Below are positions 10,306-64,000 of a stretch of 64,000 nucleotides of DNA, piece by piece. Each line of letters begins with the position of its first letter. Position 1 is the stretch's first letter. The notes under the pieces are model-generated. The model had not been told where the DNA came from. It searched no databases and saw only the letters and a list, made by a program, of their open reading frames with translations. The DNA lies in assembly GCA_018398765.1 (NCBI GenBank), contig JAHBMJ010004407.1:16753-80752 (forward strand). The letters run 5' to 3'. Position numbers and translations under genes: made by a program. Source of the stretch: Chromera velia. Lineage: Eukaryota > Sar > Chromeraceae.

Positions 10306-10973
10306 CTCAAGGGCATGAGTACGTGTGAACTTGTAGCACTTGAGTCAAGGGCACAAAACGCGTGGTGTGATAAAAGATGTGAGCATGAACCACAGTCGAA
10401 CCAATCCACCCTAAAATGAAGGAGGCTGGTTGCTAAGTACTCACGGAGCCGGAGCCGGATCAAACGAAGCGGACTCTTCCACACGAGGAGGTGTCCGTTC
10501 GCTTTCACCGACTGTTTCACAGACGGTCTTTCAGATTCTCTTCTCTCACTGCTCTTGCTGTTGCGTTTGTTGGAATGTATGTATATATATATATATATAT
10601 ATGAATGTATCTTTCTTGCTGAAATATTGTTTGGCAGCGGTGAGTGGCGGCGACATGCCGGCGACGACGCTCAAACGCTCGGCTAAAGGCTCTGCAGTCG
10701 CCGCCACGCCTTCCATGCATGCATGCATATATAGTCTAAATTAATTCCATAATTGCAGGCAATGCATTCACCGCGGTACGTCATTGCACTCGATCGATAT
10801 ATATGTCGTGGGCAGACATTCGATCATTGACCGTCACCCTGCGCACCTACACCCATGCTCGTACGTAGCGCACAGCCCTGCTTACTTTTCGTTTCAAGAG
10901 ACCACAAGACACCGGCACTGGCTGCGTAGCACGTTTTCCAGGTCTTCAGACTTCTCTGCCGAAATCTGCCGAT

Positions 10974-11930
10974 ATGGCGGAAGGTGCCGACTTGAACGCC
11001 AGCCAGCTGGCTGCCTTCTATCTGTCCATCGCACTCTTTCAAGCTCTTGCAGGGGTGATCCTGTACCGACTTTCTGGTCAGTGAGTGCAGAATGGGGCCA
11101 GATTCGCAGCACTCATGAGCCAGCATGTGCGAGGACGCACTACCACGTACATATATACATGGATGTATCCGACTCTTGTGTGTCTGTGGATGTTTGCTTG
11201 CAGCGCGGTACATCGGGACTCACGACATCCTCAGACTCAGGTCAGTGGGGCGGCATTGAACCATTGCTTAGCTTCCTTGGACAAAGAGCTCCCACTATGA
11301 GCCTCTCTTTCTTCTCCGTCTTTGCAGGTGGGAAAGAGGCTACAACACTGGAGCAGTTGGAGCGAAGCAGTTGCCCCTCTCCCGATTCATTGGCGTGGTC
11401 ATCGCCTACATCTCTTGCCTGGAGTACACAATCAAGGCTGCACAGGAATTTGACCTGGCAGCAGGGAACGACATCGGGTAAGTGCGTGACATCGTCGGGG
11501 GCATGTCTGTGAAGAACAGCCGATTTGACTGACCTTTGCCTGACCTTGTTGCACTTGTATATCTGTGTTTGCAGGTTGAACCTGACCCTCTACCAATACT
11601 GGGGATACCTTGGGGGGTGTCCGCTGATCATGTACGACTTCACTGAGACCTTGGGAATTGAGGGAAATCTGTATTACGCAGTGGGCACGTTTGCGGCCCT
11701 TCTGGCTGCCTTCTGGACCGAGTGGGTCCGTGGGGCCGCCCAGTGGGTGCTCTTCGGGGCGGGAGCCATTCTGGTGGTTGGAATGGCATACTTTGCCGCC
11801 AAGAGGTCCCTTGGAACTCTGGGCGTCCTCAGGAAACACGATGTGTCCAAGCAAGCGTGTCTGTGGCTTCTCATCGCTCTGATGACCTTCGGGGTATGTC
11901 TGTCTGTCTGTCTGTCTGTCTATCTGTGTG

Positions 11931-12001
<71 letters not shown>

Positions 12002-13733
12002 GTCTATCTGTCTATCTGTCTATCTGTCTATCTGTCTATCTGTCTATCTATCTGTCTATCTGTCTGCAGGTGTGGCTGTCTGCCTGCTGGCATGCCTGTA
12101 TGCTTGCTTGTCTGTTTAAGCGGCTGAAAGGAAAAAGAAAGAAACCTTGTGGTCTGTCCGTCAGCAGAATACCTGCACAGCATACAGACAAGACCATCAG
12201 TCAAGCTCTCTGGATGAATGACATGTCACCATGAATGTACATCAATTTCATTGCGTGGGGTGTGTCTGTCTGTCTGTCTGTGTGCAGGTGGGATGGATGA
12301 TCTTCCCGACCTCCTGGCTGCTCCGAAGTGACATCCACTCGGGTGTCCTGAACAACGCCACGATTGCGATCCTCCACGGAGTCGGAGACGTCGTTTCGAA
12401 GCCTCTTTTTGCATTCTTCCTCACACGGTCAGTCAGCCGTCATACACTCATGCAATGAGAATTCGCAGATGAAAGACGCACAGTTCTGGTGTCATTTATG
12501 TGAAGTATTGTGCGAGGGTTCCAAAGACGTTGCCATGGAAAGCCGGTGATTATCATCCACGTATGCGTGTGTTTCTTTTTTCAGATACCGAATGGAGACG
12601 GAGAACATCCACCTAAAGGCTATTCTGAAGGGCCTCAAGTGGCACAAGGACGGCACCAAGGACATCACTTTCGTTAACGCACCCGAGGAAGTTCTCGTCA
12701 TCACAGGTGCGTACGTAGGTCTCTGTCTTTGTCTGCATTGATGGATGGCACTTTCTTGATCAGACAGACAGGCAGGTTGGCGAAGACTAAAGCACGTGTT
12801 TCATTGTTATGGGTGGAGTCACCCAGAATTGTGGGGATATTCTGCCACATGATGACGTGACAGTGTAGTGTTCCAAAGCAGGAGGATGAATTTCCAGGCT
12901 GTGCGGGTCTTTCTCTTTTCCTGTTTCTTTTCCAAGACCGGAAAGCCAGGTGCGTCCCTTGCACTTTCCCAAGAATGATCTTGTTTGTTTTGCTCTCTTC
13001 ACAACATCGCGGGCGGATAAAGTGACCGACTCTCCCTTCCTCCGTTGGCGCTTCTTTTGTTGCTGTGCATTTATTTGCTCCTGGCACTTTTCGGACTCCA
13101 ATGCTGTTCAGCTCTCGTGTCCCGCGGCTGTGCAGTCTTTTGTGTATGCAATGATTCTTTCAGTCGTTCCTGCCTCTCCTCTCCACCTGACTGTCTGCCT
13201 ACTTGCTTGCAGTCCCTGCCCTACTGGAGCACACGATCAGCCAGAAGCAGCCCGAGGAAGTGAAACAAGCCATGAACCGCCTGCGCATGAAGACCTTGGG
13301 ACAGTCCGATTTCGACAAGAAGGGACTTGCGGCTCTTCAGGCAGAGCTCGGAGGAGGGGGAGGAGGAGGAGACGGCTACGCAGATGTTGAACAAGGACCC
13401 CCACGGAAGCCCGCATCCCCCAGCAGAGTCCCACAGTCGCAGCACGCCACACCAGCTCCCCCCTCGCCCGTGTCCCCCTACGCATATCCCATGGCCGCAA
13501 TGCCCATGTACCCCCCTTATGCAATGCCCATGTACCCCCCTCGCCCCATGACCCCCCCTACCCACCAACAGTCGCCTGGGGGCGACACCGATGTGCTGCT
13601 GTCGAAGGTCCTGGAGGCAGTGGGCCAGCTGGCTGGCAACATTCAGGCCCTGGAGGGTGAGCCTGAGGGAGGCGCTCAGGAGGCGAGACCCCGAGCTTCT
13701 AGAAACAGCATTTCCTTCACGGACGCAAGGTAG
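10974..13733 (+). CDS. Type-1 (microbial) rhodopsin with long C-terminal tail
   Basis: Seven exons fit with consistent phases: 10974-11076, 11204-11240, 11328-11477, 11575-11893, 12288-12427, 12585-12706, 13213-13733, giving 463 residues. Seven hydrophobic helices occupy about residues 10-250. Helix G reads GDVVSKPLF, with Lys241 as the retinal Schiff-base lysine and Asp237 four residues before it. Helix F keeps the retinal pocket Trp206, Pro210 and Trp213. In helix C (YQYWGYLGGCPLIMYD) Pro113 and Asp118 match bacteriorhodopsin Pro91 and Asp96, but Arg82 is replaced by Gln104 and Asp85 by Gly107; the CysPro pair recalls channel and cyclase rhodopsins. Helix B has a buried Glu79. The tail contains a basic segment, a Gly run and Ala-Met-Pro-Met-Tyr-Pro-Pro repeats. 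The lost counterion argues against a proton pump; a channel or sensory role is inference. The ATG was chosen because it lies just before helix A. Confidence 0.85.
11894..12070. repeat. TGTC/TATC/TG microsatellite in rhodopsin intron 4
   Basis: Runs of tgtc, tg and tatc directly after the splice donor gtatgt. Overlapping Cys/Leu/Ser frames here are not coding. Confidence 0.9.
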
Positions 13734-17455: not shown

Positions 17456-17811
17456 TAATCAGCCACTTATAGAGAGGCGGCGGCGGGCGTGCAGTGGTCG
17501 GCCCGGCTCGGCCGGTCCCGAGCCGCGGCGTTGCTTATCGGGGCAGCGCGGCTGGAGGCATTATGGAGAGCATGCATGCATTGATCCATGTTGTGAAGTT
17601 GATTCGCGCAATACTTCGAGTGATTCGATAAAGCAACTCTCAATTTCTTTAGTGTCTCTCTGGTCCTTTGTCGGGCCAGTATGCATCTTGCCTAGGCATA
17701 GGTCCTCAATAGATGAGAGCAGAAGCCGGACAGAAGTCATGCAGTATTATTCCTGTATAGAGAACCGTAAGATTGACTGGACTGTCCTTGACTGGACTCT
17801 CTAGTTCATTA
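17456..17811 (+). repeat. Left LTR of copia element 1
   Basis: Starts taatcagccacttat and ends ctctagttcatta; directly repeated at 23288-23577. Confidence 0.9.
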
Positions 17812-20800
17812 TATGGTAGCAGTTGGTTCTTTCCTCCTTCTCCTCCTCAGGGTCTGTTGGTCTCCATCAGAGTGTATCTTTCCCTCTCTGATGCCAACTT
17901 CGGACGGAGACCAACCTCGTGGGGCTGACGGTCGTTTCATCTCGAAAGACTCGTCTGATCAAAGCCCTAGCCCCTCTGACTTGGATATTTTTACCGCCAA
18001 TGTCACCAAATTGACGCAAATATTTCTTTCTCAGTCGGCTTTTATCCCGTCTCCGACTCCTACCCCCACCACTGACACGGGGAAATTCGCCCCATGGAAG
18101 TGCAAGCTCCCCTGCAAGGATACGCACGGGGGTCGAGTCGCGATTGTCAAAGCGTTTGAAGACCACTGCAAATTGCAGCCTGCCAGTGCGCTGTCTGACA
18201 TCCGTGCAGCAGCATTCTGCCAGGGTTTGCAGAAATACCCTGAGCTCTACAATCTCGTCTCGGATCTCTCGCCTCCCGAGTCTGATGATGTTGACCACTG
18301 CGAGAACCTTATCTTGCAGTTGTCGGGGGAGACCAAACACAAGCGGATGTTCACAAACTTCCACTCTCTCTTCACCCTGTCCATATCTGACTCCCCCAAC
18401 GTTGAGAAGTACATTGAGACGGTAAAGTCGGCCTGTCGAGTAATTTCCCGTCTCTTGTTGCAGGAAGAGGTTGTCCCTGTGTGGTCCGAGGTGGGGGACA
18501 AAACTGATTTCAGCACATGGAGGGTAGAGAACAAGCTCGTTCCCCTCCTTGACCCCCTTACCCGTCGTCAGGGGTAGCTGGCCTCCCTGGTCCTCATCAA
18601 CGGGATCTCCGACAGCACCGTGCATGCGAATGTTGAGAGCAGCATCGCTCCCCATATGCCTTTCGACGGCGATGACGGTGCAGTAGCAAAATTCCGTCAC
18701 TTTGCCCAGCCCTCTTGTTTCTCCCGTCTCCCTGCCACCCCGTCTGTTCTAGAGCAAACGCATGGTGTGAACATGACCGGTCGCTCCACTAACGGCCACC
18801 CTCGGTCCCGCGCGAGTAGGCCATCTCGCAGGCGCCCTCACTGTGAGCACAGGAGCCACCATCCTGAAGAGTGCTTGAAACAGCACTACTGCAGCGACTG
18901 TGATTACTGGGGACACAAGACTCAGTCTGGTGACTGTGAACTCGCCCGTGACCACTTTGCCCTCTTGAGGGCCTACGGCTACAGCGGGGGCGGGTCCGGG
19001 GGGAACGGGGGCGGGCAGGGAAAGAGGGGCAGACAGCCTACAGGGTCAAGATGGGGGCGTGCTTGTCAGCAGGGAGGGGCCCTGACTGGCGAGACGAATG
19101 AGTCAGAGGCATCGGATACAGATTCGGACGCCTCCCCTGCAGCCGCCGCTGCGGGGCATTTATGAAAGTCAGTTTTTTCTCTTCCGGTTTCTTCTGGTTT
19201 CTCTTTTGACGGTTTTGCGTGTTTGCTTGATCTGGGTGTAAGTGGCACTACGTGCACTCGTGGCTAGCTGAACAAGCATGCTGAAGAGTCAGGGTTGCAG
19301 TAGACTGAGACTGATTTGCCAAACCCTCTTTCAGTTATGACTGCTTGTCGAACGAAAGTGTGATGCGGCGCCGTGCCACCATTCTTTGCAAACTGAATAG
19401 GCAGCCCGCTGTGTTGAAACCCTCCATCATGGAAACAGAAGCAGTCACCCTCCCACTCATCGGCAATCAGCGTCTCATCGAACTAGGCGCGCGATTTGAC
19501 TATCAGACTGGATCCCTGGAACTCCCCTCCACCGTTATCAATTTTCTCCATGCAGAAAATGACCTGTTTTTTCTGCCTCTGGAGATAGACAGGACTTCCC
19601 CGCCCGAGTCCCTACCCGTTTCGAATTCCCATTCCGTGTCTTCAGAGGCCGTTGCGGTGGGTCCTGCATTGCCTGTGTCCCCTCCGTTGTCTTTTTCTCC
19701 TGTTATCCTTGCAAATGGGCACCTCCCTGCTCGTTTGAAGGCAGCCAAACAGAGGAAGCGCCAACGAGGAAATCGCATCCAGTTTCATATTGTGAAAGCC
19801 CATTCGGAAAAATCTGCTGTCTCTCCCCCCGTTTCTTCATCTTGTGACAGTTCTCCAGCCTCCGCTCAGCAGCTCCAATCTTCTTCCTCACAGGACCCCC
19901 CTCCCATCTTAATAAAAGCCACTGTTGATGAACTCATCCGCGCACATCACGAATGGTTAGGACACTTGGCGTTCCCTCCGTGCATCCCTTTCTAACCTCC
20001 TTCCTGGTCGTAGCAGCATTTCCCGTCATGCTGTTCAACGCGCCCTGCTCCCATGCATCCGAGGAGGTACATGTGCGCATGTGAAGCCGAGGCATGGGGG
20101 GGACGGCACCCGGGGGTCTTTGAAGGTCGATCGCCCCGGGCAGCGAGTGTGTTGTGACCTGGTGATGGGGTTGAAGGGGGGGTACTCGTTGCACATCCAA
20201 GATCAGCATGATGATTGGCTCGCCCAAGAGGTAGTCGAAACAAAAGACTCCGCCACAATCCATGCCGCCTATGATTGTTGGTCCCGCAGTCTGGAGGGTG
20301 ACCTCACTCCTGAGGTGATAACCGATTACGGACCCGAATTTCAAGGCGACTGGTGTGAGTGGTTGGCTGAGCAGGAAGCCACAAACCCTTTAACCCCTGT
20401 GGGCAGCCACCACTCTCTTGGCAAAACAGAGCGTTCCCATCATGAGTGGCTCATGATCTTGCGGGGCATTTTGAGAGATCGTGGTCTTGACGATTCGCAT
20501 TGGAAGGAGTTTGCTTCTCTTGCGACAGCCAAATACAATCGTCAGCCTCGAGGGTCCTCTCACAAGAGCCCCTTTGAGCAATGCTAGGGTGCCCAGCCAC
20601 CCAGTCCTCCCATCGACGCCCTGCATGACCTTCTTCAGACCTCCCATCGTCCCTCTGCCGAGACGTCTCCCTTTCTCATTGGCTCGTCTGTTTTGTATCA
20701 TCACCCCGATCACCTCCGCGCCAAACTTGCCCCCCTGTACACTCCTGCGACTGTGCTGCAGCGCATTAGCGAGCATGTGTTCCGCTTACGTCTCCCTTCA

Positions 20801-56119: not shown

Positions 56120-57113
56120 CACTACGTGCGAAAATCGGCTTCGATGTTGCAGCTAACTTCGCTACATGAGATTGTATTCGCACGTCGGTTAGAAGCTGAG
56201 CGCGCTCGCGAGATGGTTCCTTTCGAGCCCCGACCCGACAGTCTTCCTATCGATGTCATACATCGATTGAAAGCTCACATCGATCCTGCAAAGATAAACA
56301 GAGTCCCAAAGCTTACAGCAGCCTCCTTCTAGCAGAAAGGCAATCAAACAAAGGGCAGACAGGTTGCTGCAAGGCTGCGAAGGCCTATGGGAAGGCCGAT
56401 CTAATAGCTGACCGATCGCTTTTGAATCGCGCGGAGTGAACTTCAAGGCCAAAATGGAGTCCCAAGCACTTTCTCAAGGCCTTCTTGGCCTTCTAGAGGC
56501 CTGCTCTCTTACAAAGAAGCAGAGAAGAGACCGTCAAAGTCTGTAAAAACCTCTAGAGGTTCGCCAGGAAAGAAAGAAGATCAATAGAAGGCAGTCTAAC
56601 TTCAGATGAAGTTCAGTAGGGAAGCTTGCAACACTGTGACAGTTTGCAGTTGCAACAACGACTTTGAAATGCTATGCATTTCGATCTCTATTTAGTGAAT
56701 TGCAACACAAAAGACCCAGCATCTCAGAGCTCTACTTACTACTGACGGCTTGTTATGTCGATGAGCCTGCGATTCGCCTCCTGAGTGAAGCTAGCTTCGC
56801 CGCTGAAGAGGCTGAAATCCTCTCCAGACGGCCAAAATTGCACCAGATTGAGAAATTTGATGCGCGTGCATGCATGCTTTTCACGCGTGCAACACCTAGC
56901 TTTTTCAAGCAACACATTGCGCCAAGCGGGCTTGCCGGGGCCGCGCGCGCAGAGGCCGGTCACAGCGCAAAACTCAAAAAAGGGCCGCTTTGTCACAGCG
57001 CACATTTCGTTGTGACAATTAAAGCTAGGTGTTGCACGCTTCTGACCGACGTGCAAATATAATCTCGTGCCGGGTTTTTAGCTGCACATCAAAGCCGATT
57101 TTCGCACGTAGTG
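56120..57113. mobile_element. CACTA (EnSpm-type) non-autonomous DNA transposon, 994 bp
   Basis: The ends read CACTACGTGCGAAAATCGGC on both strands, with inverted similarity continuing about 75 bp inward (agctaa, gagatt, ttgcacgtcggt, agaagc). Three-base direct repeats TTA flank it (56117-56119 and 57114-57116), as expected for CACTA elements. The interior has one plus frame (56664-57062, 132 residues) with no transposase motif; it runs into the right inverted repeat. Confidence 0.75.
56664..57062 (+). CDS. Hypothetical frame inside the CACTA element
   Basis: 132 residues; the first half (ELQHKRPSISELYLLLTAC, then EASFAAEEAEILSRRPKLH) looks like a helical protein, the second half is encoded by the terminal repeat. 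Probably a captured or chance frame. Confidence 0.2.
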   Translation: MKCYAFRSLFSELQHKRPSISELYLLLTACYVDEPAIRLLSEASFAAEEAEILSRRPKLHQIEKFDARACMLFTRATPSFFKQHIAPSGLAGAARAEAGHSAKLKKGPLCHSAHFVVTIKARCCTLLTDVQI

Positions 57114-57116
57114 TTA

Positions 57117-59384
57117 GCTAGCACATATCAATCAATCAATGAATACATAAGCAACACGGCACACAACTTATGACACAAGACTTAGCCACTTTAAAAGTTT
57201 AACTGTGAAATGACAATGTATATAAACTATATATTTATATTTATACTAAGCAGGGTCTAGCGCAGATTCATAAATTTAGTCGATCTTAAATCTAATCTTT
57301 AATCTATTTAAATTAAAGTGAAATATGGCTTGGGTCCAGTCGGATGGACCAAGGCGATGGGCACCATGCCCCGCCACGCCGCCGCACTGTATCTCTGTAT
57401 TAGGAGATACGCGCATTTATGTAAACCATATTTTATAACATTCGTACACACTGTTGTGTGCATGTATTACAAGCAGTGCAGTAAGGAAATGATGAACTGA
57501 GAACAGGATGAGAACAGGATGTTGTGAAAATAAGAGAGTAGAGACACAATTCTCTCTGTATATACTCTTCACCGAACCTTATGACTCCATGATTAAGTGA
57601 ATTGATCATCCTACCTTCATTCTAGCCTGCTGTGATCTCTGTGCAACACTAAGTAGTACAACACTACCTACATTCCCCTGTAGCCTCCTTGATTCTATCT
57701 CTTAATCCTCCTCTCTCTCTGCACCAACGAATCAATCACTAATTTCACTATTAAATACTAGGTGCATCACAATAAAAAAAATTAAAGTCAATTCCTTTTT
57801 TTTCTTGCCAACAATGTTAGGTAATTAATAAACAACTGTTATTAAACTTTGACGTAACTGTTATTTTCATGTTCTAGTTCATGTTGCAATATAAAAAAGA
57901 AAAAAAATAGAAAAAAATAATTAAAACCAACATAGGTTTACTTTCTTTTTTTGCTGTGATAAGCTTTGTTTTTAGTCATTCCTGGAGTTTATAAAAAAAA
58001 TGAATCACCAGTAGATTTCGACATTAAATGACCCAATTGAGAGTCTAATTTGTGACCCCAAATATTTTTAAACACGCTCTACATCTAGCTCTACATGCTA
58101 GTACGTGTACGTAAAAATTAGCGGTATATGCATCATTGGTTCAAACATGTAATACGTAGGTCATACCTTGAATGTCGGTTGGCTTGAATTCTGAATTCAA
58201 ATCATGTGAGCCTAAGATCAGCGAAAAGCCGTTGAGGCTCTTATAGCATGCACTAGAGCATGCACCCCAACTGCACTGAACTGCTTCCCAAAAATTGTGT
58301 GCTTGCAGAGATGCCTGCATGCAATCGACGCTTCCTGCTACCCATCAAGAGCGAGCATTGTTTGGCTTAATTTGCATGAAGAACGACTCGGAAAAAGGGC
58401 TTTGTGAGACTCGTGAGAATGCGGTCGATTACTCATTGAGGACCCTGCTCTCAGCGGATCTCCATCGATTGGCAGGTCGATAGAGCTGGAACCGGATTGC
58501 GCTGTACGTGAGGTGATGACCTGAGCAGTCGCGATGATGATAATCCTCTTTCCTTTCCGGGGGAGTCGATGAACGCACGCATACATTCATACTCTCTGTC
58601 TGTCTGTCTGTCTCTCACGTAAAAGGGAGGGAGAAGGCCTTCAGCGAGTTGAGAGTTCAGTGTGAGGTGGCACGAATGATAGAGCAGCCGGAGCAGGTAA
58701 AAACGACAGAACGAATAGGAAGAATAGCAGGCTACAAGCTAGGAGAGTACCTTCAGTGAATGCCCGCTTCTCACGTAAATTGTTCGTATGAGTGACTAAA
58801 AGAAGAAGGAGCCATCCTGTCAGTCAATTCACACCCACCCACCGTGACATTCCTTCTCTTGTGCCCTGTAGATGCATGCGCTTTCTTTCAAAGATCAGAC
58901 CGAAGAGTCCGACTCAAACCTCACAACAATTGTCTCCCCTGCCTTCCCTCGTCAGACTCTCAAGACGATCAGAAGATTCGCTTGGAGTTTCCACACTGCA
59001 CGCACGCATGCATACATCCATCGCAAATCTAGATCAACGGCTGTGTAGCACTGAACTGCGTCCTTCCCTTGCTGGAAAGGTGTCCGTCTGGATCGATGGT
59101 CGGAGGGAAAGGTCCGAGGGTGAATGAATGGATGGATGGATCAATGAATGGATAGATGGATGGATGGATGGGACCACATGTATCATTGGCGTTTGAATGA
59201 CCGAGGCAAGCAGCCACTCCCCCGTCTCTCTTTGTGCCCACGCGTCCATGCAGTCAAGTCTTAATTCGTCTCGGAAAGTCTCGAAGGATCGATAAGTCGA
59301 GAATCAATGGAATCTCCCTATACTGCCCTGGCAAGGGGCTACTTGCTCGACTGACTAACTGACTGACTGACTCTTTAATTTCGG
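57117..59384. other. Intergenic stretch, no gene recognised
   Basis: AT-rich from 57,120 to 58,260, then mixed sequence with ctgt and ggat tetranucleotide runs (58,596-58,615; 59,125-59,172). I searched the minus strand here for a receiver domain that could extend the kinase gene and saw none. Confidence 0.55.
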
Positions 59385-59981
59385 TCATCGACGCTTCCTC
59401 GCTTCTTCGCTTCGAAAACCCAGCGCCTCCATTTCCGTCAGACTGTCTTGAGCCGACGTTCCATTCATGCTTTGACAGTCTGCCAGTTGGAAGGGCATGC
59501 GGATCACAAACGAGCAGCCGTGGCCCTTTCCGCGAGAGGTCATCGTCAGGTTGCCTCCGTGGGCGGAAACAATTTCTCTGGCGATGCCTGCACATACGCG
59601 CGCACACACGGACGGGCATCGTATTTGCGGTCACTCAGACGCGCACACAAGAGAGCGAGCTAGAGAGAGAGAGAGAGTAGAGGTGTCAGCAAGACCCCAG
59701 GAAAATCAGAACCCGTTAATTGCGGTAAGGTGAACTTCCGTGATTACTCCACAAAGCTGCAATGACAAAACGTTCAGAAACACACATCATGTAATGCAGC
59801 GCTCCAAACTTTCTTTGGCTGTCTGCTAACTCGGAAATTCACTCCCAGTGGAACTTTTGCGTTGATGCATGGATCGATACAGAAGGCAGTAGCTAAGGAG
59901 AACCGACAACCTGTTCTTACCTCTTGCTAGCCAAACCAAACATCGGACTACCCCGTATTCCGACACACACACACACGCGCG

Positions 59982-60021
<40 letters not shown>

Positions 60022-62065
60022 GGCACACAGGCAGGCAGGCCGGGTGCTGACTGACCGAGGCCGAGGCCGGACGCGTCCTCGTTGACTGTCGCGTTGCCTG
60101 CAATCTGAGTGAAGGGCTCGAATTTCATCAACAGGTCGATCTGGTCTGCAGTCAGCCCCGCGCCTGTGTCAACTACCTTGAAGGTCACCCACACACCGTC
60201 CACTACCGTCGTGCTGTCGTGTGCAAAGACCGCTCTGCTCGAAGGGGAGCCGACTGCTTCTTCGGGTTCTGCATCTCCAGAGCTGAAAACAGATTTTGTC
60301 ATTTTCTCCGGTGTGCCCACTGTCATTTCGACAGTGATGTTTCCGCCCTTGGAAGTGTACTTGATGGCCTGTGTATTGACGCAGCAGTGGCATCGGCGAT
60401 GAACAAGAAGGGAAAAGAACATCTTTCAGGGAGGAAATGAAAGGAATGTAGAGCTCAGAAAAGAGAGGAAGAAGAGAAAAAGGCTCGATCTCGAGCAGAA
60501 CGGGGCCGGAAACAATAGACTGGAACTGTTCCTCTAGTGACAAGAAAAGACAGACCAAACAGCCACCGAGTTATTCACGCATTGTCCAACAAATCTCGAC
60601 AAAGCAGACGAATGAAACCAAAGCAAGTTTGAGTTTGATTTTTCCACTTGAAAAATCTATCCACGACCCCCACAATCGCGAAACCTCGGTCTGAATGGAA
60701 GAGACCAGAGAAGCAGACAGATCAGAAGGAGTGCCACCAGGACGCACACCGAAGTGACAGACAGAGAGTCCTAACTGACATTCGACAGCCCATTTCCGAT
60801 TGCTTGTGACAGCCTGCAAGTAGCACAAAGAAACCGCGGACAGTGCGACTCAGAGTGTCAATGCAAGCAGTACCTTTGTAGATATCTCATTGTGGAAGAG
60901 GAGGGAAGGGGGGAGCTCCACAAAGCAGGAAAACGTCTACAGAAGATTCATGCCCTTCTGTTCACAGGAAAAAGATTCTGAGGGTGCCTCTACAGACACT
61001 GACTGCCCAACAAAACGACCAAGCGAAGGAGAAAAGGCCGCAAGGAAGGAGGAGAAGAAAGCAGCCAACGACAACGAGAGAAATACCGCACAGGAAAGAT
61101 CTATGTATCGCGCTAGCTGACTGACTTTCTCTGGTCCCCAATGACCATCATGGACTCTGGAAACTGCCCGCTAACTCGGTGGTCTAGGCGGATCTGCTTC
61201 CGCACGGCTCCAGGGCCAAACCTCTTCACCAACCGTTCTGTCGTGTCAAGGAGACGGAATTTACAGGGCTGGATGATTATGCGGACCTGCAGGAGACATG
61301 CACAGAGAGGGAGACACACACACAAAGTCTCCGTGTCTTGCGTAGGAGCAAAAAGGAGGAGATCCATTTGACGTACAGCTGCTTGTCTGTATCTCTGTTT
61401 GCCTTTCTAATGCATAGAAAAACCATGATGATCGGACTGACGGACGGACCTGTTTCTTCATTTGTTCGAGAACAAGAACATCGTTGAGTACGGAGGTGAT
61501 CATCTCTTGTGACCATTGCATCGTGTTGATCAATTTGTTCTCTGCACCCATGTCCTCTTGGAGCATGTCCAGACTTGCGTTGAGGGTGTGCAGAGGGACG
61601 CGCACCTCGTGGAAGATGAATCTGAGAAATTTGGATTTCGCCTCGTCAACGTGAAGGGCTGCGTTCGTCGCATCTTTCAGCTCCTGCATGCATGAGAAGT
61701 TCCTTTATCCGTCCCCACAGATTTTCAGAGAGTCCACTTCTATTGAAGAATCGATCAATAGACAAAGAGAGAAGTCAAAAATATGTGCGACTTCTTATTT
61801 TTCATCATGCCTCTTTCTTTCAGCGTACACGAATTGCCCTTACTCCTTTGTCTCTTTGCTGAATCCATTTTCATCGATCCTCGGGAGGGCAGACGTGTTT
61901 CTCCAAGGACTGTCTTCACTCGCCATCCCACTGTCTGCCTGTCTATGCAGGAGTTGGCATAAGTCTTTCGTTAGTCTGTGCATCCTTCTGTGTGTCAATC
62001 TGTCTCATCATTTGTCTCCTTGTTCTCCTTCTTCCTGTCCAAGAATGCATGCTGACAAACACACA

Positions 62066-62116
<51 letters not shown>

Positions 62117-62438
62117 CTGACCTTCATTTCCGATTCCATCTCGCCCTTCGACTGCGCATCTCGCTGGATTTTCTCGATCATCTCGATGGCCGACACAAAA
62201 ACCATCAGAAACCTGATGGCACGCACAACGTTACAGACACATCTCACAAAACTGCCCTTGGACACTCACCTCTGACACCCGGTCAATTTGGAGGAGAGTG
62301 ACACTGACAAGAAAGGTCATTCATTTCTTCCCTCAAAAATACCTAGGTCGTTCGTTCGGAAAGGAGAACTTTCGCACAGACAGCAGAAACGTACCGTCAA
62401 GAATCGAGACCGCTTGAAGGACGGACACACACACACAC

Positions 62439-62506
<68 letters not shown>

Positions 62507-63822
62507 GTACACACACACACTTGCTTTACGTTGCATCGGCAGCAGGCATACAGAAGCCGCAAACGGAGAGTGAGAGAGAGGCAAACAGACTGACAGGCGG
62601 ACAGCCAGAGAGACACCATGACTGACTGACCGGCAAATTCAGAAAGGAAATGAGGCCACACTGTATGCTTGCTCTTTCTGGGCGGCAGCAGGCAAAAGGT
62701 GGAGAAGGAAAGCCGATGGCCTGTCTTTCACGTCATCAGCTGATCAAACGAGCTGCAGAAATCAAAAAGGCTAAATCTAAACGCACTTCACCAACCCACC
62801 CCTTCGTAACGACGTCGCCGCAGCACCAGAATCCCATCTCAAAGTCCACAGGAATTGCATCAAACATCGCCAGAAAGTAAACAATCCCGTAAATACCGTT
62901 GCTGGCAAGAAGCACATAGAGATTGATGTGCTTGAAGGTTACCAGGTTCTTTGCCAAGTCTGTTTCGTTCTCTTGTCTCGGAAGCCACTTCCGAAAACCC
63001 AGCATCCAACGAACCGACAGAAGATAGGCAGCCCAGCAATATGCATGCCCCCCATGCCGAAGCAAAGGGTGTGCAGCGGTCTTTGACCACAGGGACACCT
63101 GACAGTAGGTCGATTCAAGGATCATCGGAAACAGCATTTCCTCGAAGGGCACTCTGAACAGCCTCCCCACTTGATACATCAACAGAGGAACGTGGGAAGA
63201 CCAGTCCGCCTCTCTGCACGCCCAAACAAAGCATATGCGGAGACGCCAAACATAGTGCACATGAACATGGAGTGAATATGCAAATTTACAAGTCTGGCAC
63301 ACGCAAACGCAGGGGACTCTCACGGTGGGCGTGCGATAGTGAGTGAGTGTGTGTTTGTGCAGGCGGCATATACACAGCATGTTTGTGAGCGAGTGACACT
63401 GTGCGGGGTGCAGCTAAGTGGAAGGAAAAGAAGGGAAGGGGGCCGGGGTCAGTCTGCAAGTGCGTCTGCAGTCGCTATTTGAGGCTCGGTGAAGTCGAGC
63501 GCGTGGGGTGACAGGCAGGCAAGCAAGCTGACCTCCAGGCAAAGAAAGGTCGCCCCGTGAGAGGATCCACGACCGTTGGGAAGAGTTTGCTTCTATAAAC
63601 AATGTACGAGATGAACAGGCTGCAGTTGACGAAGAACGCCACCTTGCACCCCATCATGTCCATTTCCTTCGATCGGAAAAGGAGGTAGAAGATTGCCGAC
63701 ATGACAATCATCCCCCCCAGGACCGGAAAAACTGCACAGAGAGAGAAGCAGAACAGAAAGCCGCATGTAGGAAGACCACCAGGGAGGGACGTGGGGGAGG
63801 CACGATTCATCTTTTCTTCCAT
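59385..63822 (-). CDS. Histidine-kinase rhodopsin (microbial opsin fused to HisKA-HATPase)
   Basis: Eight exons in consistent phase on the minus strand: 63822-63533, 63213-62800, 62212-62122, 61683-61450, 61286-61126, 60813-60780, 60368-60056, 59587-59385; 579 residues. Seven helices span about 25-250. Helix C reads FAWREADWSSHVPLLMYQ: Arg97, Asp100, Trp101 and Pro106 match bacteriorhodopsin Arg82, Asp85, Trp86 and Pro91, while Asp96 is Gln. Helix G ends GDVVTK with retinal Lys234 and Asp230. A coiled-coil linker leads to the HisKA box FLRFIFHEVRVPLH (phospho-acceptor His290). The HATPase has the N box GNGLSNAIKYTSKGG, G1 DTGAG, F box FEPF and G2 GLGLGIAREIV. It should convert light into histidine phosphorylation at a membrane. 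No receiver domain follows. A strong acceptor at 63732 suggests the first exon could lie beyond the window instead of starting at the 63822 ATG. Confidence 0.85.
59950..60020. repeat. CA/CG dinucleotide run in a kinase-gene intron
   Basis: Alternating ac and gc runs just inside the intron after the G2-box exon. Confidence 0.95.
60780..60813 (-). other. 34-nt micro-exon carrying the HATPase N box
   Basis: Between acceptor ttgcag and donor gtcagt. It supplies LSQAIGNGLSN, exactly the residues needed between GDQRK of the preceding exon and AIKYTSKGG of the next, with matching phases. Confidence 0.8.
62056..62114. repeat. AC/AG dinucleotide run in a kinase-gene intron
   Basis: ac run followed by ag run directly downstream (gene sense) of the exon ending at 62122. 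Confidence 0.95.
62407..62520. repeat. Long CA dinucleotide run in a kinase-gene intron
   Basis: About 45 ca units with a few interruptions between the helix-G exon and the linker exon. Confidence 0.95.
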
Positions 63823-64000
63823 CCACTAAGTAAAAAGTATTGGTCTATCTATACCCTGCAGTTGCATGCATGAACGCAATGGGAGCCGACATATCCCTAA
63901 AGACCACACATGTATACATGCATGCTCAGAGAGAGAGAGAGAGAGAGAGAGAGCACATGGATTGACGGTCACATTGCGAGTCACAATTTAGACATAGAGT
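63823..64000. other. Upstream region of the kinase-rhodopsin gene, window edge
   Basis: Contains a ga run (63929-63953). On the minus strand an ATG at about 63892 opens a short frame (MSAPIAFMHATA) ending near a possible donor, but its phase does not match the acceptor at 63732, so I do not call it an exon. Confidence 0.4.

Follow-up and report, generated by a model that had tools for sequence, protein, structure and literature searches.

A gene in which a microbial opsin is followed by a histidine kinase lies on the minus strand near one end of a Chromera velia contig (JAHBMJ010004407.1, hereafter C3544). The window, by which we mean the whole 64,000-nucleotide stretch that was analysed, is the end of this contig (16753-80752 of 80752 bases), which stops at window position 64000. 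All coordinates below refer to the window unless another contig is named. Based on the evidence described here, this is probably a nuclear C. velia gene for a predicted membrane-bound histidine-kinase rhodopsin (HKR) that has no receiver domain of its own.

Gene architecture

The gene occupies 63731-59385 (minus strand) and consists of eight exons (E1 to E8) in a single frame. All seven introns between them have GT-AG borders and matching phases, and the spliced frame passes from opsin to kinase without a stop codon. Together with the acceptor at 63732, these introns account for eight junctions touching the window, the number given by the first-pass annotation of this DNA, which had also placed the 3' end correctly, at a TGA stop codon at 59385. 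Residues of the retinal site are given by their bacteriorhodopsin (BR) positions. The protein numbering used alongside (R93 to H286) starts at an ATG at 63810 that we reject below, and serves as a label only.

E1 (63731-63533) encodes most of helix A, helix B, the B-C loop and the last two bases of the Arg82 codon. E2 (63213-62800) encodes helices C to F and the first half of helix G, as judged from the family alignment and the fold match to rhodopsins. It contains, after R93 (BR 82) with its split codon, D96 (BR 85; 63206-63204), H100 (BR 89; 63194-63192), Q107 (BR 96), D226 (BR 212) and the retinal lysine K230 (BR 216; 62804-62802). E3 (62212-62122) completes helix G and opens the short, helical linker that leads to the kinase. 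E4 (61683-61450) carries the HisKA/DHp domain with the phospho-acceptor His286 at 61611-61609 (KFLRFIFHEVRVPL), E5 (61286-61126) the end of the DHp region and the start of the catalytic domain, and E6 (60813-60780), an exon of just 34 bases, the N-box (LSQAIGNGLSN). The ATPase domain continues in E7 (60368-60056), with the G1 box DTGAG at 60170, the start of the G2 box and an insert of about 40 residues; E8 (59587-59385) completes the G2 box (GLGLGIARE) and adds a C-terminal tail and the TGA, without a receiver domain.

The opsin part and its retinal site

Helix C of the opsin reads AWREADWSSHVPLLMYQ and helix G reads GDVVTKGFLMVFV. The Arg-x-x-Asp-Trp motif of helix C is present as AWREADW, spanning the E1/E2 junction and supplying Arg82, Asp85 and Trp86, and the Asp-x3-Lys motif of helix G is present as GDVVTKG, with Asp212 one turn before Lys216. 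In the family alignment K230 falls on BR position 216 and D226 on position 212. With Arg82, Asp85, Asp212 and Lys216, and with His at 89, the retinal site is complete in sequence. These residues agree with the first-pass annotation, which had described a seven-helix opsin with Arg, Asp and Trp in helix C and a lysine in helix G.

A profile of three opsin rows had one match at E <= 0.01 among 3326 candidates, the C. velia protein Cvel_31871. When the three-paralog opsin profile was run against PDB sequences, the best match was 7pl9 (4.5e-12), followed by a halorhodopsin, a cyanorhodopsin, RhPDE and others. Up to an E-value of 1, this search returned 20 distinct sequences, every one a microbial rhodopsin, as shown by the name or, in the case of psXR, the chloride importers and the phosphodiesterases, by the general nature of these proteins; 7pl9, whose record is named 'Rhodopsin', is presumably bestrhodopsin.

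AlphaFold2 modelled E2 alone as five helices (predicted local distance difference test score 77.5, predicted template modelling score 0.58). Re-ranking of the 83 top Foldseek chains with VIA-align placed microbial rhodopsins in the first 19 of 50 rows, above unrelated helical bundles. The aligned range of the E2 model was 1-137, ending at BR residue 216; VIA-align reports only the first and last aligned residues, and since the range ends at this residue, the lysine at model residue 137 meets the retinal lysine. A helix-G lysine outside the retinal site, which would have spoken against the first-pass reading, was thus not found: in the fold of E2 it aligns with BR 216.

An origin of the opsin in prokaryotes or viruses was considered and not adopted: the three-opsin profile confirmed no relative in viral contigs (4 pattern matches) or genome contigs (43), a weak result, as the patterns demand exact motifs.

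The kinase part and the search for a receiver

In the kinase part, HisKA (E 7.8e-7) and HATPase_c (E 9.7e-20) pass their Pfam cut-offs; these domains, together with the seven phase-matched GT-AG introns, bear out the earlier claim of an opsin spliced in phase to HisKA and HATPase. The H, N, G1 and G2 boxes are intact (His286, NAIKYT, DTGAG and GLGLG), and the H-box is FLRFIFHEVRVP. At the level of the genomic sequence, a single predicted chain with opsin, HisKA and HATPase is confirmed.

The Pfam scan found no receiver domain in the chain, which stops at 59385, and no bestrophin or phosphodiesterase domain. Twelve minus-strand frames, each 60 amino acids or longer, overlap the downstream region 56500-59384; a scan of ten of them, which might miss a receiver split over short exons, found no receiver, and the best match was TRAF3_RING (0.0032), below its cut-off. 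No receiver match fell on C3544 or on C2731, the contig of a second copy, among the best 50 scored of 139 candidates in the genome, and HPt domains, searched exon by exon, gave no match in the Chromera genome. At least 89 Chromera contigs match PF02518 or the window kinase and at least 46 contain receivers; among the receiver matches listed, seven of the 46 contigs have no kinase match.

The 5' end and the annotated model

Cvel_31871 (EukProt, P0001, C. velia, 135 residues) ends with the E1 translation, FPVLGG...FFAW, exactly at the split Arg codon. That a C. velia protein carries E1 settles the identity of what had been called a probable alveolate. The protein reads ...IWMRQVELVFPVLGG..., which is compatible with the acceptor CTCTGTGCAG up to 63732. 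Upstream of E1, the protein sequence ends ...IWMRQVELV, and the 3' splice site at 63732 consists of a polypyrimidine run followed by GTGCAG. The first-pass annotation had given the gene a 5' limit at 63822, and an in-frame ATG at 63810 could have served as start codon; both are wrong, because Cvel_31871 continues upstream of FPVLGG via another exon, so that 63822 is not the start of the gene and E1 begins at 63731. The part of Cvel_31871 before FPVLGG was not found in 4040 Chromera contigs except as weak paralog matches. The upstream exon with the start codon is outside the contig; by eye, this exon holds an additional hydrophobic stretch before helix A.

A second copy and two paralogs

A second copy of the gene on C2731 comprises E2 to E8 in the order of the window gene, and all splice sites are present in both. 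Over E3 to E8, a Nei-Gojobori count gave a synonymous divergence (dS) of 0.675 and a non-synonymous divergence (dN) of 0.126, hence a dN/dS of about 0.19 (104.2 synonymous differences on 234 sites, 89.8 non-synonymous on 777); for this count, E3 of the C2731 copy was trimmed by three bases and codons with gaps were left out. By this measure, purifying selection has maintained the kinase, the linker and the splice sites in the C2731 copy. E2, however, is identical in DNA between the two copies, whereas the rest of the gene has the dS given above: L058:1-448 and window 63240-62793 share 99.8% DNA identity over 448 bases up to the contig end, so that the identity starts at the contig start and ends 7 bases past the end of E2. 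This points to gene conversion or to an assembly overlap.

Two further paralogs are more distant. The C3731 opsin is 46% identical in E2 and shares the introns; a gap of N covers its 3' part. The C2332 opsin is 39% identical to E2 and has introns in the Arg82 codon and just after the retinal lysine, in the same places and phases. At BR positions 82, 85, 89, 96, 212 and 216, the residues R, D, H, Q, D and K are common to the window opsin and to those of C3731 and C2332. With a second copy of identical exon order, and intron positions common to two paralogs of such low identity, chance is excluded as an explanation for the arrangement.

The C2332 gene (L060, C2332:63000-72500, from about 8430 to 3900, minus strand) is an opsin-pseudokinase that retains both opsin introns. 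A single uninterrupted exon encodes helix G, the linker and the start of DHp, reading SRNRFMREILDEV. This corresponds to the window H-box KSKFLRFIFHEV, the phospho-histidine being replaced by Asp, and it is followed by an HATPase remnant of 23.8 bits, below the cut-off. Such a loss of the phospho-acceptor and weakening of the ATPase domain in a paralog could be read as a sign that the window gene, too, is decaying or silent, its fusion no longer yielding a working receptor. In the window copy, however, motifs and splice sites are all intact, and the low dN/dS over E3 to E8 also speaks against decay, which we therefore consider quite improbable for this gene.

Relatives of the kinase

Kin of the kinase were drawn from the best 120 of 2535 kinase matches, the opsin-kinases among them being numbered within P0003-P0113. 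The search brought up opsin-kinase proteins in metagenomes, in EukProt and in a pelagophyte record. Identity to the window kinase was 22-33% across all 120 matches, of which seven have a precomputed Bac_rhodopsin domain and 38 the H-box HEVRVP. Eukaryotic by source or name among the listed matches of this kind are P0028 (MMETSP), P0029 and P0075 (EukProt) and P0110 (Pelagophyceae); P0028 is too short to reveal an opsin.

Of the HEVRVP proteins, 32 have 100 or more residues N-terminal to the kinase; an opsin profile built from six labelled proteins matched 19 of these 32 (all six being within the 19) and none of 71 other kinases. The 13 HEVRVP proteins without a match (P0003, P0004, P0005, P0007, P0009, P0010, P0011, P0019, P0021, P0027, P0030, P0088 and P0110) include rows with the nearest H-box. 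In the second search round, the window opsin with its linker matched the Pfam-labelled opsin family at E 8.7e-7; without the last 45 residues before the H-box the match was weak (E 8.5e-4, 11.7 bits). These E-values are for about 100 sequences; those of later rounds, in which the query itself takes part, are inflated.

In the family alignment, the retinal lysine is absent at position 216 in 10 of 33 relatives with a letter there, so opsin-kinases without retinal seem to exist. Opsin-kinases without Lys216 that keep HEVRVP are P0003, P0004, P0005, P0007, P0009-P0012, P0027 and P0030. It is thus conceivable that the window gene is a true fusion in which light does not control the kinase and the opsin serves as a membrane anchor or senses something else. 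Lys216, Asp212, Asp85, Arg82 and Trp86 are nevertheless all kept in the window protein and in the C2332 and C3731 opsins, and we regard this possibility as unlikely.

In a first kinase tree that included the H-box, 41 rows fell on one side of a branch (99% in the Shimodaira-Hasegawa-like approximate likelihood ratio test), 40 of them labelled by their H-box motif, a label that is partly circular. When the H-box was removed, the label needed three changes. A 60-row tree without the H-box, from which P0004, P0006, P0018, P0021, P0028, P0030, P0034, P0043 and P0061 were left out as long-branched, short or near-identical and in which 26 other kinases were kept, placed 34 opsin-kinases including the window pair on one side of a branch (100/93), while another branch (99/87) parted the window pair and the 26 other kinases from 32 opsin-kinases. 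The window pair thus sits at the meeting point of two groups, and the tree does not single out its closest relatives. Bearing on common descent with known HKRs, then, are the shared H-box, the weak opsin match and a tree position between groups.

Evidence against the assignment

Several observations weigh against the gene as we read it. The Pfam Bac_rhodopsin match (PF01036; E 1.1e-3, profile positions 8-214 of 224) scores 18.9 bits, less than the cut-off of 24.6. Residues 1-260 of the chain had no match at E <= 1e-3 in a large protein database (452 candidates), and Foldseek with the E2 model gave none at E <= 0.001, the best being 7d7q, a rhodopsin phosphodiesterase, at 1.5. The start codon is absent from the assembly contigs. 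The sole annotated model, Cvel_31871, stops at the first intron after E1 and has no kinase, and no Chromera protein with this kinase was found among the 120 kinase matches considered (candidates of 316-1006 residues). Because its E2 is identical to that of the window in DNA, the opsin of the C2731 copy does not count as independent evidence.

With regard to the opsin, the Pfam score alone would not settle the identity of so divergent a protein; the paralogs, the profile searches and the fold do. With regard to the linkage, the truncated annotation could indicate that an opsin gene and an adjacent gene for a soluble histidine kinase have been read as one. This we consider very improbable, as the spliced frame has no stop between the parts and all phases match; E3 holds half of helix G together with the linker, and the C2731 copy keeps the linkage; in C2332, helix G, linker and DHp start share one exon; and single proteins known from elsewhere join an opsin to a kinase whose H-box is of this kind. 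Reading the locus as one opsin-kinase gene, we see in the 135-residue Cvel_31871 an example of how annotation can break such genes.

Other features of the window and the genome

A second opsin gene lies at 10893-12458 on the plus strand, with a tail to about 13733. Its helix C region reads LYQYWGYLGGCPLIMYDF and its helix G GDVVSKPLFAFF, and its closest PDB chains, BlChR2 (1.4e-6) and HcKCR2 (2.2e-6), mark it as channelrhodopsin/KCR-like. It may correspond to one of three C. velia sequences that PMC9765531 names. The long open frames at 17792-20587 (plus strand) resemble, by eye, a retroelement polyprotein with an integrase-like part. Elsewhere in the genome, an opsin exon on C1128 (L061, 7129-6878, minus strand; GMRFCEWTMAAPMYTYMVGRILF) looks by eye like the helix C region of 7pl9. 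Alveolin and CPW-WPC families are diagnostic of apicomplexan relatives. The Chromera genome had 11 alveolin matches (the control Caulobacter also matches) and 14 CPW-WPC matches (none in 14 controls), in keeping with a relative of the apicomplexans, as well as 58 matches to light-harvesting proteins.

Discussion

The predicted protein suggests a simple course of signalling. Light would isomerise retinal on Lys230, and the ensuing movement of helix G would alter the coiled linker and, with it, the DHp dimer. ATP-dependent phosphorylation of His286 would thereby be raised or lowered. As no receiver is attached and no HPt was found, the phosphate would then pass from His286 directly to a separate response regulator. 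These steps are modelled on the known biochemistry of 2c-Cyclops and HKRs, with the sequence contributing the parts only, and a light-driven phosphorelay via this protein, as the first-pass annotation had suggested, is a fair inference from them. In 2c-Cyclops and HKRs, the kinase step is reportedly inhibited by light (PMC6284317; PMC12558739).

Since histidine kinases work as dimers, a pseudokinase such as that of C2332 could pair with an active kinase. Fungal rhodopsin-cyclases form heterodimers with NeoR (PMC7655827), and by analogy Chromera might possess a small lineage-specific set of receiver-less HKRs with Asp85 and His89, comprising two intact kinases and a pseudokinase, from which a light-controlled kinase/pseudokinase heterodimer could form. 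We offer this as speculation that is unlikely to be right. A variant Rhod-HK without an ATPase domain is described from Micromonas (PMC12704426).

If the assignment is true, light-regulated two-component signalling would operate in the photosynthetic sister group of the apicomplexan parasites, and laboratory work towards a light-controlled kinase could take this receiver-free kinase as a simple point of departure. In the open-licence literature we found no report of a histidine-kinase rhodopsin for Chromera or another alveolate, and the main text of the Chromera genome paper contains none of the words 'histidine', 'rhodopsin' and 'two-component' (PMC4501334). The Chromera rhodopsins found in that literature are channelrhodopsin-like (PMC9765531, PMC8818676) or belong to a QTQ-motif clade near heliorhodopsins (PMC9601134). 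The opsin-kinase kind itself is already known; what is new is its occurrence in this lineage, together with the Asp85/His89 site, the lack of a receiver within a small paralog set and a paralog that is a pseudokinase.

The first-pass annotation had called such kinases known from green algae. That is correct but too narrow, as HisK-rhodopsins are tabulated both in green algae and in the cryptophyte Guillardia theta (PMC7693036; PMC7714340) and opsin-kinases also occur among metagenome, EukProt and pelagophyte proteins. With the green-algal HKRs (Chlamydomonas Cop5/HKR1, Ostreococcus Ot-HKR) and 2c-Cyclops, the window gene shares the order opsin, HisKA, HATPase and the retinal lysine in helix G. 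These are type Ib opsins with eight transmembrane segments (PMC6284317), and the hydrophobic stretch that Cvel_31871, judged by eye, has before helix A may correspond to their extra segment. Unlike them, the window chain has neither receiver nor cyclase and is set apart by Asp85 and His89, in view of the tabulated residues discussed below.

A receiver in the same chain is a usual feature of HKRs, though not a universal one, and the window gene does without it. Similar in this respect are GtRh9 and GtRh10 of Guillardia theta and DsRh1 of Dunaliella. In PMC7693036, where three tabulated HisK-rhodopsins are without a receiver, these proteins are listed under HisK and are absent from the HisK-RR row. 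Unlike the window gene, they have Gln at position 85 and either Thr or Ser at position 89, and they come from a cryptophyte or a green alga, not from an alveolate (same source). The opsin-kinases within P0003-P0113 resemble it in their multi-helix N-terminus and in an H-box near FLRxxFHEVRVP; many of them, however, have a receiver domain, and none of those with a letter at these positions has Asp85 or His89.

Bestrhodopsin (7pl9) and rhodopsin phosphodiesterase (7cj3), which rank first and sixth when the opsin profile is run against the PDB, are effector-linked opsins as well. The effector in the window gene, however, is a histidine kinase and, by the Pfam scan, not the bestrophin channel or phosphodiesterase of these proteins. 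Gln at position 96 means that the opsin has no carboxylic donor as in proton pumps; this motif alone does not exclude transport, since the sodium pump KR2 has the same residue (PMC7693036). At position 85, the 40 HisK-rhodopsin rows tabulated in PMC7693036 have Gln (17), Glu (10), Met (5), Cys (3), Leu (2), Asn (2) or Ser (1) and never Asp, and at position 89 they have Thr, Ser, Ala or Gly and never His. In the metagenomic opsin-kinase family, Asp85 occurs in 0 of 26 and His89 in 0 of 27 rows with a letter there. The combination of Asp85 with His89 in the Chromera gene would thus represent a retinal site unlike that of the HKRs tabulated so far.

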